Shown in pieces: positions 1 to 47,624 of a stretch of DNA of 58,715 nucleotides (its first letter is position 1; each line of letters opens with the position of its first letter). The stretch covers positions 69,110 to 127,824 of the forward strand of contig VXOS01000142.1 in NCBI GenBank assembly GCA_009839925.1. The letters run 5' to 3'. The notes under the pieces are model-generated. The model did not search any database. It saw nothing but the letters and a program-made list of their open reading frames with translations, and was not told the DNA's origin. Both the position numbers and the translations under genes were made by a program. The stretch comes from Chloroflexota bacterium (GTDB lineage: Bacteria; Chloroflexota; Dehalococcoidia; UBA2979).

Positions 1-223
1 GCGCACCGACGTGGCAACTGCGGGGAGGACCGCACGAAATCGCTGCTTCGGCGTCCGAACATGCGGGGAGTTCGCATGTCTGGGCGTGGGCGCGTGCAGG
101 GTACGGCACGTTTCCGTGGATCACCTTTGTGAGGGGATGTCGCCAATGGCCATCTCCGGGTCGGCCCCACGTAGCGCCGACGGGGCGGCCGCAGTGAGGG
201 ATGAGGCTACCGCAGGGGGACCG

Positions 224-1711
224 ATGCTCAATAGCCAGACCGCTGACGCAGGAGACGACTGGCGCCTGTTCCGGGCCGGCGCGTTTCTTGCGTCGGACCC
301 GCACGGGTCCGACGCACCTGACGAATGGGGTGACCTGGAGGAGCGTGAGGACGCCTTGGGCTTGGAGTTCGGACGCCCGTTTTTGCTCCGGCCGGATCTC
401 TCCGCTGACATCAATGTCCTGCTGTACTTCGCAAGTCCTCGCTTCCGGCTCCTGGCGCCAACCTCTCAACTCGGCTACGCCAACAACATCCGAGTGTTCC
501 TCAGCTACCTCACGTCGCAGGGCGTGGAGTGGCGCGAGGCTACCGAAGACCACCTCCTGAACTACCACTACCGGCGCCGACAGAAGCCGATCAAAGGCCA
601 GGCTGTGATCTCGGGTACAGCCTTCGCGCGAGAACTCGCGGCCCTGACTCACTTCTTCGTGTGGCAGCAGGAGAGTGGTGCCATCCAGGAGAGCCCGGTC
701 AAGCTGCGGTCGTACCGCCGGTACGATGGAACGACGGGGATGACTGCGCGGCTCCGCCCGAAGGATGTGCGCGCGTTGGACGTGAAGTGGCTGCTTCCCG
801 ACACGTACCGTGTTTGGAGGCAAGTGGGTCTGGGGGGCTACACCAGGGACGGCCTCCCGGACCGGTCCTGGCGTGGCCGGAACGATGGCCGGAACCTCGC
901 GTTTGCGGACGCGTTGTGGACGAGCGGCTTGCGACGCAAGGAAGCCGGCACGCTGCTGTTGTGCGAACTACCGGCCCCGCGAAGTGACGGCACCCTGTCT
1001 CGTGGTCGCGTCGCGGACGCCGTCGCCAAGGGTCGCGCCCGGAGCTTTTGGATCTCGCAGGCCGGTCTGCAGGCTATCGACGGGTACAGGGAGTCCACTC
1101 GGGCGCTGAGCGTTCTGAGAGCGCAGGCGGCTGGCCGCTACGACCAGATACGCGGACGGCGAATCGTCCGGCGGGTGACTGCGAGCGGGCAGCTCCGCTT
1201 GGAGGATGAAGACGGGAACATCACGACAGAGTCGCTGGATAGCCTTACCGCCGGCGACAGGCAACGGTTGTTCATCGAAGGCGCCCGCGGGTTTGAGCCC
1301 GCAATGCTCTGGCTCTCGGAGTCGGGAATGCCGCTGCGCTTCAACACCTGGAAGATGGTGTTCCACGACGCGAACCGGCGGTGCGAAGCGCTGGGCGTGG
1401 GCATACGATGCTACCCACACATGCTCCGGCACTCCTTCGCGCTGCGTTGATGGGCGATCAGCGCTGAGCAGCTCGGTGCCAGGGAGAACGACAGGCTCGA
1501 TGACTACGTGGGTCGCGCCGACCCCTGGGTGAGGGTTCAGACTCTCCTCGGGCATCGCAGCCCCCAGACGACCCGAGACACTTACCTCGAACCCGCACGC
1601 GAGGTCGACATCGAGCTCATGCTCGCGGGCGACGACGGCATCGGTTCGCGCGATGAAATCTTGGGACTTGTCGCAGATAGGTCACCAAGAGTGCAGGGGT
1701 GGCCGTCCTGA
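224..1711 (+). pseudogene. Tyrosine recombinase, Tn554 TnpA-like (first of trio), interrupted by in-frame TGA at 1448-1450
   Basis: Frame-2 ORF 11..1450 ends HMLRHSFALR*. The same frame continues WAISAEQL...VQTLLGHRSPQTTRDTYLEP to 1711. HxxR lies before the stop; LGH and the Tyr lie after it. Confidence 0.8.
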
Positions 1712-3567
1712 TGTCACCCGGCCGGAATCGCCGCATCTCCTTCCCCGAGCCCGACGATGAGCGTCCCCCAATCCTCAGCGCCGATGGTCTGGTCCTCGGT
1801 CCGCTGATCGAAGAAGACGGGACGGACATGGGCACGTACGACTTCAGGGTCTTGCTGCCGGACTGCCCGCGAGGCCTTGTGGTGCCGCTCGTGGCCGGGC
1901 TCGCCAGGGGTGCGGGTCCCGGGGGGCGATGGCGGAGGCGGGCTTCGGTTCGTCAGGTTGCCGGCGTCTTGCGCACGTTCGTGCGGGAAATCGCAAGGCT
2001 GTACCCCCAGTTGGATTCGATTGAGCGGCTCAGCCCCGAGATGTATCGGACTTGGTTCTGGGAAGTGCGGTCTCGTGTGACGTGGCCGGGCCTCATCGTC
2101 ATCGTGCGTGGGCTCCTCGAGGAGACCGACGGCGTGCCACGAGAGACGCTGCAGGCAGTACGAACGCTGCGGGCGAGCAAGCCGAACCATGGAGCGTCGA
2201 AGCGCTATACCCGGTCCGAGTTCCGGCGCATCCGGTCCGCCCTTCGTAGGAGCGCCTTCGCTGGCCACGCCCGCGTCGAATCGAACGCCGCACACCTGGC
2301 CCTCTATCTGGCCGGGGAGGAACCGGATGACGCGCCGCGATGGCAGCTCATGGACGAGGTCTTCAGTAAGGGCGAGTTCCTAGCTCACCTCGCGCGCACC
2401 GGCAGGCTACCCGACGCGTATTTGGGTGCCGAGCATGTGGAGCAAATACCTGTGCGTGAGTCGTTGGGATGCGTCGCCGGTGGGGTCGATGCGCGAGCGG
2501 CACTCTTCCCGACCGCGTCCGAGGCGTTCGCCCTGGCTGCTCTCATCGCCTGCGAACGCGGGTGGAATCACGCTTCCATCATGGCTCTCGACCTCGACGC
2601 TGTGGAACGTGTCGTCGGCGTGGCGGGTCGAGGCGCAACTTACCGCATCGAACTGGACAAGCCTCGGCGGGGTTCCGGTCGCCGGTTTGGAGCGCAGATC
2701 CTCACTAGGAGGCAGGCTCGGCTCTGGGAGCTGGCCGTCGCCTTCACGCAGCCCGCGCGGGATACGCTCGCCGAGCTCGGCCACCCAACGACTCAGCTGC
2801 TGGTTGCAATCAGCCAAGCCGCCGGCACGACCGGGCCGGGAGGCGTGTTCATCACCGACTGGCTGACCCAGTCTCCGGGCTCATTGGCTTGGCACCGGAA
2901 GGTCGAGCTGGCGGCCGACGACGGTACCCCCTTGAGAGTCACGTTCCTGCGTCTTCGCAAGACGTGGTTCGGGATGCATCGGCGGCCCAACCAGAACACC
3001 GGTGAAGTCCTTGAGCAGTCGTACCTCCGGAACGACCCGGAGGTCGTCGAGCTAGCACTGCAGGAAGCCGAGCACGGGCTGACCGACTGGGTGGAGGGCG
3101 CGAAGGAAGGCATGGTACAGCGGATCGGCACCGACGATCTCGCGGCTGCCCGCGATGGCGTGAGGGACGTACCCGGCATCAGCCAGGAACAGGCAGGGGA
3201 CATCTTGAGTGGGCGTCTCGAGACACCGGGTTGTGTTGCATGTCTCGACATCCATCACAGCCCCCACCCGGCAGACGATGGCGGCGACTGTACGGTCTCA
3301 CCGCTGATCTGCCTGGCGTGCCCTAACGCGGTGTCGACTCCCGCGCATCTCCCAAAACAGCTGGCCCTGGCTGAGGTTCTCAAGAACGCCGCCGCCGCCC
3401 TCTTCCGCACGCCGAGGGAAGGGCAGTATGACCTGCACCTCCTTCGACTCCGAAGTCTCATTGCGCGAGCAACGCCGGCCGAAATCGAGGAGGCGCGTTC
3501 CGCCATAACGGCCGAGGACATCGACAACGCCGAAAGGCTGCTGAGAAGGGAGTTCGACGTATGGTAG
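1699..3567 (+). CDS. Tyrosine recombinase/integrase-like protein, middle gene of trio (TnpB-like, C-terminal Cys cluster)
   Basis: 622 aa; LRLRKTWFGMHRRPNQNTGEVLEQSYLRNDP plus GCVACLDIHHSPH...CLACPNAVSTPAHLPK; overlaps both neighbouring ORFs. Confidence 0.75.
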   Translation: MAVLMSPGRNRRISFPEPDDERPPILSADGLVLGPLIEEDGTDMGTYDFRVLLPDCPRGLVVPLVAGLARGAGPGGRWRRRASVRQVAGVLRTFVREIARLYPQLDSIERLSPEMYRTWFWEVRSRVTWPGLIVIVRGLLEETDGVPRETLQAVRTLRASKPNHGASKRYTRSEFRRIRSALRRSAFAGHARVESNAAHLALYLAGEEPDDAPRWQLMDEVFSKGEFLAHLARTGRLPDAYLGAEHVEQIPVRESLGCVAGGVDARAALFPTASEAFALAALIACERGWNHASIMALDLDAVERVVGVAGRGATYRIELDKPRRGSGRRFGAQILTRRQARLWELAVAFTQPARDTLAELGHPTTQLLVAISQAAGTTGPGGVFITDWLTQSPGSLAWHRKVELAADDGTPLRVTFLRLRKTWFGMHRRPNQNTGEVLEQSYLRNDPEVVELALQEAEHGLTDWVEGAKEGMVQRIGTDDLAAARDGVRDVPGISQEQAGDILSGRLETPGCVACLDIHHSPHPADDGGDCTVSPLICLACPNAVSTPAHLPKQLALAEVLKNAAAALFRTPREGQYDLHLLRLRSLIARATPAEIEEARSAITAEDIDNAERLLRREFDVW

Positions 3568-5666
3568 CGCGCGAAGCTCACATGCACGGCGACGGGGAGT
3601 ACGACGCGCCCGTCGAGTTCGGCCCGGATCTGCCTGTACTGGACGGCGCCCGTGCCGCGACCTGGCCCTACGACGAACCGCCACCCCGGATGGGTGACAG
3701 TGAGTGGCCGCTTCCCGGGACCGACCCCGACGGGGCAGGCATGCAGCACACCATAGTGTGGAAGGGCGTGCCCGATGATTTCCTCGAGGGCCTGAAGCTG
3801 GTCGTCCGGTCGCTCCTGAATAACCGAACCCCGCTCGGCGTCTTGGAGCGCAGTAGCTGGGCGCGCTCCCGCCTCAGCGACGGTTCGGTAGCGGCCGCCG
3901 TCGCCGACCTGAAGTACTTCGCTCGCTGGGCCCACGAGCGCGGCATCAGCGACCTTCGAGACGTCGACGGACCTACGCTCTGGGCATACGTCACTCACCT
4001 GAAGAGCCTCGGTGTGTCGCGGAGGATGGGCTACAACCGCGGCTGGGCGTTGACGCGGCTCTGGCTCCACAGCAGGTACTTGCCAACTCGCCACCGGCTC
4101 CGCCAGCCACGGTGGGAGATTCCCGGGCAGCCGAGTCTCACGGAGTTCTTCGGGCCCCCGGAGAAGTACGTGGAGAACACAACCGAACCAATCGACCCGG
4201 ACACGTGGGATGTCATGTGGTCCTGGGCCGAGTGGTTCATCAGGGAGCCCGGGCCCGACATCGTGAGAGCCAAGGAAGCGCGTGACGCAATGAGAGCGGG
4301 TCTGCGCAAGAAGGTCGAGCCCGGCGATGAAGCGCGATTCAAGGAGTGGCTGGCCGCGCGCGAGCGGATTGGTGAGCCCTTGCCGGGGTGGCGCTACCAC
4401 GGCCGTTTGGGCGTCGGCCGCGAGTACATTGCCCTTCAGGCCAACGTTGGTCTCGGCGCGGTTCGCCGCTTTGAAGCCGTACCGGTGGAACGCAGCGCCC
4501 CCCTCGACTGCCGTATCGAAGGGCGTCTTCAGGGTCGGCCATGGACCAACTTTATCGACTACTACGAGATCGACGCCCTTGTGGAGCATCTCGCGACGGC
4601 AGGCACCATCATCATCGCCGCCTTGACCGGAATGCGGGGCCTGGAGCTGCGCTCGCTGGAGCGAGGCTGCTGCCGACGCGTGGATCGCGGTTCCGGAAGG
4701 CCGCCGGGCTACGAGGTGAGAGGCAAGACATTCAAGACAACGGACTCGGACGGAAACGCCGTCCGCGGTGGTCAAATGCGCGATGCCCCGTGGCCGGGGA
4801 TCCCCCCGGTACCGCAGGCCGTTCAGATCCTAGAGTGCATGCACGACGATGCTCTCCTGCTCCCGAGCTACATCTTCGGGAGCAAGCCTGGGCGGGCGGT
4901 GTCGGGACAGCAGTTGAACACATGCATCCAGAGGTTCATGGCGTGGTGCAGTACCACCGCGCGGCAGGCGGGCCTGAACGGGGCGGCCATCCCTGAAGAC
5001 CCGGCTGGGCGCATCACCGTGCGGCGGTTCCGGCGCACGATGGCTCGAGTGGTCCAACTCCGACCGCTCGGGCGAATCGCCAACGGTGTCATGCTGGGCC
5101 ACGCGTCGCTCCGCACCACGGACGGGTACGGCTCGCTCGTGTTCAGTGAGCAGCGTGACACGTATCGGCAAGAGGAGTCACTAGCCATCGCTGCGCGGCT
5201 GCTATCGCTTGCCGAGCGTCTCGACGCAGGGGAGGGCGTGAGCGGGCCCGCTGCGTCGGACCTGCTCTCAGTGGTGACCGAGTTCGCCGGCAAGCACCTT
5301 ACGCCCCGCCAAGACGAGGCGGTGCGCGAGAATCCTGACAGCGCTCTCTATGAGAACGACCATCTGTACCTCATGTGTGTATACCGGGCAGATCGGGCGC
5401 TCTGCCACCCAGATCGGGCCGGCTCACCGAATAGCAACCAAAGCCCGGACCTCACCAACTGCCAGGTGAGTTGCCCGAACGTGGCCTACACCGACCGCAA
5501 CATTGTCGATATGGAGGAAGCGGCGCGTCAGCTACGCGCGGTCGCGGCGTCTCCGGAGGCCCCACTGTTTCTCGTGGTCCGCTCGGCGCAGCGCGCCGAG
5601 CGCATGGAAGAGATCATCGCCAAGCACCGCGAGACGCGCATCGTCAACCCGAGGGATGTGACTTGA
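3561..5666 (+). CDS. Tyrosine recombinase/integrase, third gene of trio
   Basis: 701 aa; LTGMRGLELRSLERGC, VRRFRRTMARVV, VMLGHASLRTTDGYGS; Cys-rich tail CVYRADRALCH...CQVSCPNVAYTDRN. Confidence 0.8.
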   Translation: MVAREAHMHGDGEYDAPVEFGPDLPVLDGARAATWPYDEPPPRMGDSEWPLPGTDPDGAGMQHTIVWKGVPDDFLEGLKLVVRSLLNNRTPLGVLERSSWARSRLSDGSVAAAVADLKYFARWAHERGISDLRDVDGPTLWAYVTHLKSLGVSRRMGYNRGWALTRLWLHSRYLPTRHRLRQPRWEIPGQPSLTEFFGPPEKYVENTTEPIDPDTWDVMWSWAEWFIREPGPDIVRAKEARDAMRAGLRKKVEPGDEARFKEWLAARERIGEPLPGWRYHGRLGVGREYIALQANVGLGAVRRFEAVPVERSAPLDCRIEGRLQGRPWTNFIDYYEIDALVEHLATAGTIIIAALTGMRGLELRSLERGCCRRVDRGSGRPPGYEVRGKTFKTTDSDGNAVRGGQMRDAPWPGIPPVPQAVQILECMHDDALLLPSYIFGSKPGRAVSGQQLNTCIQRFMAWCSTTARQAGLNGAAIPEDPAGRITVRRFRRTMARVVQLRPLGRIANGVMLGHASLRTTDGYGSLVFSEQRDTYRQEESLAIAARLLSLAERLDAGEGVSGPAASDLLSVVTEFAGKHLTPRQDEAVRENPDSALYENDHLYLMCVYRADRALCHPDRAGSPNSNQSPDLTNCQVSCPNVAYTDRNIVDMEEAARQLRAVAASPEAPLFLVVRSAQRAERMEEIIAKHRETRIVNPRDVT

Positions 5667-5748
5667 TGCCCCTGACTATAGGACCGCAACGGTCACGGGC
5701 CGGGCGCTGCCGAGCGCCGAATGTGTTGGCGACAGGGATGGGTGCTCG

Positions 5749-6231
5749 ATGAGCAAGGCGAATCAGGTCGAAGCCGCGATCCGCGCCGCTATGGACAGAC
5801 TCCTGAAGGGCGAGCCGATTCGTTCGGATGGGAGCCTGACAGCAGTAGCTCTCGCTGCAGAGTCCGGCGTGTCACGATGGAAGCTCTACGACGAGTACCG
5901 GTATCTGCTCGATGAGTTCGGCACCAGGGCCGCGCTCCAGGACAACACGCCTCGGGCCCTCCGAGACTTGCAGGAGAAGCACGCGCAGCTCAAGGAGCGG
6001 CACATCAGGACCCGCAACAAGCTGGCTCAATCCGCCGCAGATGTGAAGCGCCTGAGCTGTGTCGTCAACGTGCTGGCGTTGGAGAACGCGAAGTGCAAGG
6101 AGAACCACGGCGACCGCCGCGACTCCGACAATCGCCCCGATCGAGGCGGCGGCCCCGATTGGGACGACGGCCCCGATTCCAATGTGACCCCAATCAGCCG
6201 CGCGAAGGGTTTCAGCCACGACACGAACTGA
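5749..6231 (+). CDS. Small TnpC/DUF6262-like accessory protein
   Basis: 160 aa with HTH-like N-terminus (LTAVALAAESGVSRWKLYDEY) and coiled-coil-like region, directly downstream of the recombinase trio. Confidence 0.6.
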   Translation: MSKANQVEAAIRAAMDRLLKGEPIRSDGSLTAVALAAESGVSRWKLYDEYRYLLDEFGTRAALQDNTPRALRDLQEKHAQLKERHIRTRNKLAQSAADVKRLSCVVNVLALENAKCKENHGDRRDSDNRPDRGGGPDWDDGPDSNVTPISRAKGFSHDTN

Positions 6232-6320: not shown

Positions 6321-6342
6321 AGGAGGGCAACATCCCCCTCCT
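6321..6342 (+). terminator. Hairpin AGGAGGG-N8-CCCTCCT between the tnpC-like gene and the dcd fragment
   Basis: Perfect 7-bp inverted repeat (6321-6327 / 6336-6342); no clear U-tract. Confidence 0.4.
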
Positions 6343-6389
6343 GAAGCCCCTCAGTACGCCGACAAAACCCGCTTCGACACGCCGACCCT

Positions 6390-6668
6390 GAATACAACGC
6401 CGGCTTTTGCGACCCCGGCTTCGGCTACGGCGCGGACCTGCGCGGGACGCAGGCGGTCCTCGAGGTGCGTGCGCACGACGTGCCGTTCATGCTCGAGGAC
6501 GGCCAGCCGATCGCCCGGCTCGCCTTCGAGCGAATGGCGGAGCCGCCGGGCGTGCTCTACGGCAGCAGCGAGCTGGGCTCGCACTTCCAGCGCCAGGGCG
6601 TGAAGCTCAGCCGCCAGTTCAAGGCCCCCGAAGCGAGCATCCGCTTCCAGATGACCAGCGGCCGCTGA
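6390..6668 (+). pseudogene. dcd: 3' fragment of dCTP deaminase (long Dcd-type), 5'-truncated
   Basis: Frame reads YNAGFCDPGFGYGADLRGTQAVLEVRAHDVPFMLEDGQPIARLAFERMAEPPGVLYGSSELGSHFQRQGVKLSRQFK; no start codon or N-terminal part; stop upstream in frame at 6342-6344. Confidence 0.7.
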
Positions 6669-6859
6669 GGCGCCCGCGCGGCCGCAGCGGACACGACAGC
6701 CCTCGCAGCCCGTATCCTTGTCGGACGGCGGTCGGCCCTCGCCGAGGGCGGGCCGCGACCCCGGAGGAGGACCGGATCCCGAGGAAGCGCACTCGCAACG
6801 GTCGCAACGGCGGAGCCGACGGCACGGGCAGGAACGGACGCGGGCACGCGACCGCGCCG

Positions 6860-8041
6860 GTGCAGGAGCGCGCCTTCCTCGTCGGCCTCGACTACCAGCG
6901 CAAGCCGCTCATGCCGCCTCGCGAGTCGCTGCGCGAGCTGGCGCGGCTCGCCCGCACGGCGGGCGCGACCGTCGTCGGGCAGGCGCTGCAACGGCGGCCT
7001 CGCCCCGACCCCGCGACCTGGATCGGCGCCGGCAAGCTCGAGGAGATCCAGGCGGCACGGGAGACCACGGGCTACTCGCTCGTGATCTTCGACGAGCAGC
7101 TCTCGCCCGCGCAGCAACTCCGGCTGGAGTCGGCGCTCGGCGTCAAGGTGCTGGACCGCAGCGCGTTGATCCTCGACATCTTCGCCAGCCGCGCCCGCAC
7201 CCGCGAGGCGGCGCTGCAGGTGGAGCTGGCGCAGCACGAGTACCTGCTGCCGCGCCTGCGCGGGCAGTGGCGGCACCTCGAACGCACCGAGGGCGCGATC
7301 GGGGCGCGCGGACCGGGCGAGACGCAGCTGGAGACCGACCGCCGCCTGGTCGGCGCCCGGATCAGCCACCTCAAGCGCTCGATCAAGGGCGTGCGCAAGC
7401 AGCGGGCACTGCACCGCCGCCGCCGCGAGCGCGACGGCATCCCGGTGGTCGCGCTCGTCGGCTACACCAACGCCGGCAAGTCCTCGCTGCTGCAGGCGCT
7501 CGCGGGTAGCGAGGCGCTCACCGCCGACGCGCCTTTCGCGACGCTCGATCCGCTGACCCGCCGCGTCGGCGCGCCCGGCGGCCACGCCTTCCTGCTGACC
7601 GACACCGTCGGCTTCATCCAGAAGCTGCCGACGCAGCTGATCTCGGCCTTCCGCGCCACCCTCGAGGAGCTTGAGTCCGCCGACATGCTGCTGCACGTCG
7701 TCGACGCCAGCTCACCCGCCGCGGCGGCGCAGGGCGAGACGGTGCTGGAGACGCTCGCCGACCTCGACCTGACGGGACGGCCGGTGTTCACAGTGCTCAA
7801 CAAGGCCGACGAGCTGGAGCTGCCGGACGGGTCGCTGCCGGCCGCGGAGTCCGACCTCGCACGTCTCGACGGCGAGAATCCGGCGCACGAGTCCGCGCTG
7901 GCGCACCCGGACCTCCCGCACATCGGGACGCTCGTCGTCTCCGCGCTGCACGGCTGGGGCATCGATGCGCTGCGCGAGCGGCTCGCGCTCGATCTCTTCG
8001 GCGAGCGTCCGCCCGCGCCGGCGCTCGCGGCGTCGCGCTGA
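6860..8041 (+). CDS. hflX: GTPase HflX
   Basis: ERAFLVGLDY..., WIGAGKLEEI, P-loop GYTNAGKSSLLQAL, DTVGFIQKLP, NKADELEL. GTG start at 6860 chosen; N-terminus uncertain. Confidence 0.92.
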   Translation: MQERAFLVGLDYQRKPLMPPRESLRELARLARTAGATVVGQALQRRPRPDPATWIGAGKLEEIQAARETTGYSLVIFDEQLSPAQQLRLESALGVKVLDRSALILDIFASRARTREAALQVELAQHEYLLPRLRGQWRHLERTEGAIGARGPGETQLETDRRLVGARISHLKRSIKGVRKQRALHRRRRERDGIPVVALVGYTNAGKSSLLQALAGSEALTADAPFATLDPLTRRVGAPGGHAFLLTDTVGFIQKLPTQLISAFRATLEELESADMLLHVVDASSPAAAAQGETVLETLADLDLTGRPVFTVLNKADELELPDGSLPAAESDLARLDGENPAHESALAHPDLPHIGTLVVSALHGWGIDALRERLALDLFGERPPAPALAASR

Positions 8042-47269: not shown

Positions 47270-47624
47270 GGGGACGATAGGAGTCGACAGGAGTCTACGG
47301 ACACGGATTGCGGGCCGAGGCGCCACCACCCTCGTTAAACAGGTGGCAAAACGTAACTGGCGAACGAGAACTCGCCCTCGCCGCCTAATCAGGCGGTGAC
47401 GTCGCCCCCGGGCTCAGCCCGGCAGACCGGGAGGCGGCGACGTAACGCCGGGCTGCACCCGCGAAGGCGCGCCACAGGTCTCGCGGCCAAGATTACTGGG
47501 GCTGGCCGGCCCACCCCTCGTCGGTGAAGGCAGGCCGGTGAGATCTTCTCACCGACTACGCCCGTAGCAGATCCGTGACGGACGCTCGCTGGACGGGGAG
47601 TTCGATTCTCCCCCGTCTCCACCA
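47270..47624 (+). ncRNA. ssrA: tmRNA (ssrA); predicted tag GERELALAA
   Basis: 5' GGGGACGATAGGAGTCGACAGG; tag ORF GGC GAA CGA GAA CTC GCC CTC GCC GCC TAA (47359-47388); 3' GGGGAGTTCGATTCTCCCCCGTCTCCACCA; acceptor ends pair. Confidence 0.93.

Follow-up and report, generated by a model that had tools for sequence, protein, structure and literature searches.

How did a dCTP deaminase gene (dcd) come to be cut off from its own beginning in this Chloroflexota genome, and what may serve the host in its place? The window, that is, the whole stretch of 58,715 nucleotides analysed, corresponds to C20:69110-127824 of the focal genome G000 (2.86 Mb in 214 contigs, 95% complete), so that a scaffold C20 coordinate is the window position plus 69109. 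Three recombinase-type genes followed by a small gene of the GinD/TnpC-like kind occupy positions 11-6231, and to their right, at 6398-6668, lie the last 90 or so codons of a two-domain dCTP deaminase (Table 1). The first-pass annotation had taken this arrangement for a mobile element inserted into dcd at a recombinase target site, because the frame ending at 6668 has no N-terminal half and follows an in-frame stop at 6342-6344. The stop is indeed present, and the fragment is C-terminal in both models that it matches: in Pfam DCD_C it covers positions 119-192 of 192 (E 2.7e-28), and in NF005734/PRK07559 it spans 292-367 of 368. Elsewhere the window contains a tmRNA gene (47270-47624) with the tag peptide GERELALAA.

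Table 1. Coordinates of the features discussed (window positions, except where C20 is given)
Feature	Position	Strand	Remarks
173-bp tandem repeat, right portion	1..199	+	left portion and 10-N gap lie just beyond the window
ginA-like tyrosine recombinase	11..1450	+	homology from about 220; in-frame TGA at 1448-1450
ginA catalytic C-terminus (LLGHRSPQTTRDTYL)	1508..1711	+	same frame, past the stop
ginB-like recombinase, 622 aa	1699..3567	+	
ginC-like recombinase, 701 aa	3561..5666	+	41% identical to the G003 homologue
ginD/TnpC-like small protein, 160 aa	5749..6231	+	
Right inverted arm of the island (TTGTATTCAGGGT on minus strand)	6385..6397	-	from arm comparison
Core ACGCCGG, element/host junction	6397..6403	+	common to the left junction, C20:34162-34168
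3' remnant of host two-domain dcd (AGFCDPGFGYG...MTSGR)	6398..6668	+	profile matches and alignment to G001
hflX-like GTPase gene	6779..8041	+	conserved right neighbour of dcd in G001
Carried single-domain dcd, intact, 188 aa	C20:39873-40439 (L006:11874-12440)	-	

The 5' half of dcd, for which an upstream search had been suggested, lies at the left end of the element, 41.3 kb away on the same scaffold and beyond the window (C20:33225-34168; L006:5226-6169). It spans positions 6-293 of NF005734 (307.8 bits against a cut-off of 283), contains a complete DCD_N domain (Pfam positions 2-163 of 164) and, jointly with the 3' remnant, matches the full length of the model. The interrupted gene is thus of the PRK07559 two-domain type (e.g. 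PDB 2r9q), from which the G000 copy differs in being broken after THYAG of the second domain. The 5' half reads ...AYDPTNGELRTHYAG, then CR and a stop, giving a truncated product of 317 aa. Both halves end at the identical core ACGCCGG, and about 41.3 kb separate the two cores as scaffolded; the split falls within the conserved THYAG/FFDPG motif and detaches the VLEV segment and the remainder of the second Dcd domain.

The state of the locus before insertion can be seen in G001, a genome of the same genus (only 87% complete), where an uninterrupted two-domain dcd is flanked, as in G000, by an aminotransferase-side gene and hflX. Its gene is long (403 aa), which disposes of the idea that relatives have the same short form as the fragment in the window. 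By blastn, the left and right sides of the G000 locus are 88.8% and 90.3% identical to the G001 locus and overlap by 5 nt in this empty site, whose sequence is CACTATGCCGGGTTCTTCGACCCC. The left junction reads CACTACGCCGG / TTGTCGTTAGGGT and the right junction ACCCTGAATACAA / CGCCGGCTTTTGCGACCCC, the slash marking the boundary, and alignment to the G001 gene, which has ATGCCGG where the core stands, places the junction at the 7-bp core. The first-pass annotation was therefore right to situate the junction near a conserved segment, but its bracket of 6345-6395 lies slightly too far left, as similarity to the intact relative begins at the core. With the junction codons excluded, 16 synonymous and 0 non-synonymous changes separate the 3' remnant from G001, and the insertion is therefore recent; dN/dS is about 0.15 for the 5' part. 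From the substitution pattern of both parts it follows that selection acted on the gene until a short time ago. The two-domain enzyme of G000 is presumably now dead.

Both junctions have the appearance of a tyrosine recombinase site, the 7-bp core being accompanied at each by an imperfect inverted arm, in agreement with the site-specific target first proposed. The arms, TTGTCGTTAGGGT and TTGTATTCAGGGT, form the inner ends of the island and are identical at 10 of 13 positions (p ~3e-4 for random pairs), and the right end is identical at 16 of 20 positions to the ginA-side end of the homologous island in G003, another genome of the same genus (public Chloroflexi MAG, VXMU01000115, SB0661_bin_44). 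The GC content of the element is 0.65 compared with 0.70-0.73 in the flanks, and falls to 0.49 in its AT-rich leftmost 150 nt. A tRNA gene as the integration target was considered and discarded, none being found near the element in L006-L008.

The recombinase genes resemble those of GInts in gene order, and this order together with the small protein matches loci in Actinobacteria and alphaproteobacteria; a weak homology chain also links the recombinases to a plasmid of Pseudomonas aeruginosa that shows this four-gene arrangement. Searches with ginC across the family (44 genomes) and the phylum (400 genomes) returned few relatives, and further gin relatives were drawn from genome contigs and plasmids. 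Two properties set the G000 operon apart. First, ginA is interrupted by a TGA and a short deletion ahead of its catalytic C-terminus, although this stop could be an assembly error. Second, the operon is inverted with respect to canonical GInts, so that some 165 bp separate ginD from the right junction and ginA faces the cargo, whereas in the relatives L082, L083, L095 and L156 ginA lies beside the attachment site. In view of the ginA stop and of the inversion, this copy of the island, judged from its sequence, may no longer move. These recombinases presumably made the dcd insertion.

The same two properties are what an account in terms of a composite element would build on, in which the 41 kb arose by nested or tandem insertions, or by inversion of the gin operon after a first insertion, so that the recombinases now present were not the original agents. 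A 173-bp tandem repeat upstream of ginA (C20:68769-69308) adds to it, as this repeat and the scaffold gap of 10 N that it encloses (C20:69100-69109, directly left of the window) lie between the cargo and the gin operon. We nevertheless regard such an origin as unlikely, because the end arms occur solely at the two outer ends, these agree with one another, and the right one also agrees with that on the ginA side of the homologous island. Tandem islands in particular were rejected, since no copy of an end arm inside the island is better than 2 mismatches. A composite origin would alter the history of the element and not the exchange of dcd. The repeat has no copy elsewhere in the G000 genome, which makes the scaffold join plausible; the exact length of the island is uncertain, its contiguity hanging on this single gap.

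Beyond what the first-pass annotation contained, the analysis brought out the GInt-like nature of the island, a second dcd aboard it, and the same pattern on other genes in other phyla. The carried gene is intact, of the single-domain TIGR02274 type (221.7 bits, above the curated cut-off of 92.8; e.g. PDB 2qxx, which is also its closest PDB relative), and 90-91% identical to the chromosomal dcd of the congeners G002 and G003. In the first 13.8 kb of the island it is the only gene that strongly matches congeners, suggesting that it was not captured together with chromosomal neighbours. Scans for sigma-70 promoters and terminators around it found nothing; the gene is presumably expressed and functional. 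It need not be the sole source of the activity, since G000 has a third, divergent Dcd-like gene on C15 (33% identical). The remaining cargo includes a CoiA_N protein, a TPR-PIN protein, an HKD+Snf2 protein, a type IIG restriction-modification enzyme, a HicB-like protein and a GAP1 / DO-GTPase1 / DO-GTPase2 / GASH set. The genes of this last set (GAP1-N1, DO-GTPase1, DO-GTPase2, GASH) are consecutive (L007:7606-12693; C20:55605-60692); the row has no PADLOC match and is predicted to be a GTPase-based conflict system.

The distribution of the two dcd types suggests how the exchange came about. G002 and G003 have no two-domain DCD_C match, and their native single-domain dcd lies between a regulator gene, accompanied by a membrane-protein gene, and another conserved gene. 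When the corresponding loci of G000 (L197, on C7) and G001 (L198, on C59) are compared with that of G002 (L199, on C56), the outer neighbours are adjacent in the first two, and dcd and the membrane-protein gene are missing. G005, another member of the family, has its aminotransferase and hflX matches side by side, with no dcd match in between. The simplest history is that the single-domain dcd is ancestral, that the lineage of G000 and G001 gained the two-domain gene and lost the old one, and that the island broke the new gene and restored a single-domain one. As a separate observation on these genomes, a repeat of about 55-75 nt (matches to L049:2915-2989) is present in dozens of copies in G002 and G003 and in a short diverged form in G000 and G001.

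Related islands split other genes and, in several cases, carry a homologue of the gene that they split. In G003, a D12 methylase gene that is intact in G001 and G002 is cut after NKTCFNGL, and an intact D12 methylase gene is placed after ginD. (A 23-nt sequence, GGTGTGTCAAGTGTGCAATCCCC, is found near two contig ends of G003, at L092:33-55 and near base 54 of L082; the L092 copy adjoins the 3' part of the split D12 gene, and this is probably a repeat that broke the G003 assembly.) In alphaproteobacteria (Sphingobium, Brevundimonas, Paracoccus and others), ardC is cut after EEL(V/I)A, with both halves visible in several loci, and many loci have an intact ardC after the recombinases; in L159 the carried ardC is itself frameshifted. 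In Blastococcus (L147-L149; G459:C40:86952-107514), the islands are bounded by inverted terminal repeats some 40 bp long and cut the gene of a Y-family polymerase (dinB) at its SIDEAF motif. From the D12, ardC and focal cases we predicted that an intact dinB would be found aboard, and it was then located in all three genomes, between the two halves and near the far end; the one carried polymerase gene that was read through is intact and has the SIDEA motif. At the target position the carried and split copies differ, with ACAGCCGG against TACGCCGG for dcd, AATGGTTTG against AACGGCCTG for D12 and ACCGCC against GTGGCC for ardC, which suggests that the carried copies would be poor targets.

Actinobacterial islands interrupt DNA methyltransferase genes of several families, including HsdM, type ISP and Eco57I-like enzymes, immediately behind the NPPF/DPPF codons (motif IV), just upstream of ginA (L095, L098, L101, L097, L103, L104, L083, L084, L096 and L126), with CGTAAAATGTCGGTGTGTTGTGGCAG or close variants at the island end. 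Their cargo includes defence systems that bear methyltransferases; since defence cargo often has such genes, they were excluded as proof of substitution, and these islands are suggestive only. Several Streptomyces and Nocardia gin loci show no clear interrupted gene upstream of ginA.

The carried dcd might have nothing to do with the target and be aboard by coincidence among about 35 passenger genes, retained perhaps for a role in nucleotide metabolism or in conflict with phages. It is far from the gin operon (about 30 kb) and 5.7 kb from the left junction, unlike the substitutes of the D12 and ardC islands, which adjoin the operon, and it travels on an island rich in conflict genes. In addition, a minimal island of about 6 kb in Paracoccus (L172, G462:C98:21420-27519) splits ardC with no ardC aboard, from which it follows that a substitute is not obligatory. 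We consider coincidence improbable all the same. Among 83 other gin loci (1.48 Mb) there is neither a dcd nor a D12 gene, and ardC occurs in the alphaproteobacterial ones only; a homologue of the split gene is aboard in the D12, the ardC and the dinB islands alike, one of these cases having been predicted beforehand; and parallels have been published for RME (PMC4405046) and Tn552-II (PMC12486829). A replacement might also not have been required, if the truncated 317-aa product were still an active deaminase by virtue of its complete DCD_N domain. This is quite improbable, given what the split removes from the second domain and the intact dcd on the same island. Finally, that mis-scaffolding joined the dcd halves to unrelated sequence is hardly credible despite the 10-N gap and the 214 contigs, as the gap is inside a repeat unique in G000, each junction lies in continuous sequence away from it, and the halves are complementary to within the core, match the empty site and are bordered by matching arms.

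These considerations lead us to propose, with good confidence, that a GInt-like island entered the two-domain dcd site-specifically and brought its own single-domain dcd, so that the host exchanged one for the other, as part of a recurrent strategy of the family. The three-recombinase island would integrate at the codons for THYAG/FFDPG, in a core of about 6-7 bp (ACGCCGG) between inverted arms, and the insertion has severed the second Dcd domain ahead of its C-terminal segment, which would destroy the resident gene. The recombinases would thus recognise a short core in a conserved coding motif found in many hosts, and the island's own dcd, altered at the site, would take over. A conserved segment would provide a widely available target, while the substitute would offset the cost of breakage; it is probable that islands of this recombinase family repeatedly follow the strategy of bringing a replacement for the gene they hit. 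More tentatively, gin-type islands as a class might be gene-exchange elements. They would aim at coding sequence for conserved or catalytic motifs in enzymes of wide occurrence (Dcd, DNA methyltransferases, Y-family polymerase, ArdC), destroy the resident gene and put in its place a diverged version to which their own recombinases are blind, thereby driving non-orthologous replacement and the exchange of defence modules across phyla.

Self-substitution is already known in single elements (recA in RME, tgl in Tn552-II). In a limited search of open-licence papers, dcd did not appear as a target, nor did the NPPF, SIDEAF and ArdC sites, and substitution was nowhere described as a recurrent trait of gin islands. 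The present observations turn isolated precedents (recA, yolD-like) into a testable rule, namely that where a gin island splits a gene a replacement should be sought inside it. Its record so far is one correct prediction (dinB, in 3/3 genomes) and one counter-example (L172). If general, it would account for islands landing in conserved, useful genes, for non-orthologous replacement of housekeeping genes and for defence genes nested in defence genes. The motifs further provide predictions of where multi-recombinase integration systems have their natural targets.

Compared with known systems, the island is closest in organization to GInts, with which it shares the gene order of three tyrosine recombinases and a small protein, site-specific insertion with short imperfect direct repeats and an exchange region of about 6-7 nt (here ACGCCGG at both junctions), tens of kilobases of cargo with restriction and defence genes, and a short AT-rich far end (PMC5385486). 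It departs from them in having ginD at the junction, where ginA should stand with the cargo after ginD, a broken ginA where four intact gin genes, all required for integration and excision, are expected, a target cut in mid-motif and a homologue of the target aboard. For GInts, insertion is reported to fall chiefly at gene ends and probably not to inactivate the target completely (PMC5385486). We call the G000 island GInt-like, and not a canonical GInt, because ginD and not ginA faces the junction. It differs from Tn554, which has only the TnpA and TnpB recombinases and TnpC, in the three recombinase genes that precede the small gene. The RME island of Vibrio cholerae S24, whose mobility and function have been demonstrated experimentally, splits recA and carries an intact divergent recA opposite the integrase end (PMC4405046). 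The G000 island likewise has inverted end repeats and combines a split housekeeping gene, the two-domain dcd, with an intact divergent homologue; RME differs in its recA target and in using a phage-type integrase and XerS rather than a gin operon. Tn552-II, a Tn554-like transposon of 9 kb, has a yolD-like target and three genes in total (tnpABC) where the G000 island has ginABCD, and its target-gene-like gene tgl has been proposed to act as a rescue (PMC12486829); the two elements have in common recombinase genes of the tnpABC type, a 7-bp att core and a carried homologue of the gene that they interrupt.
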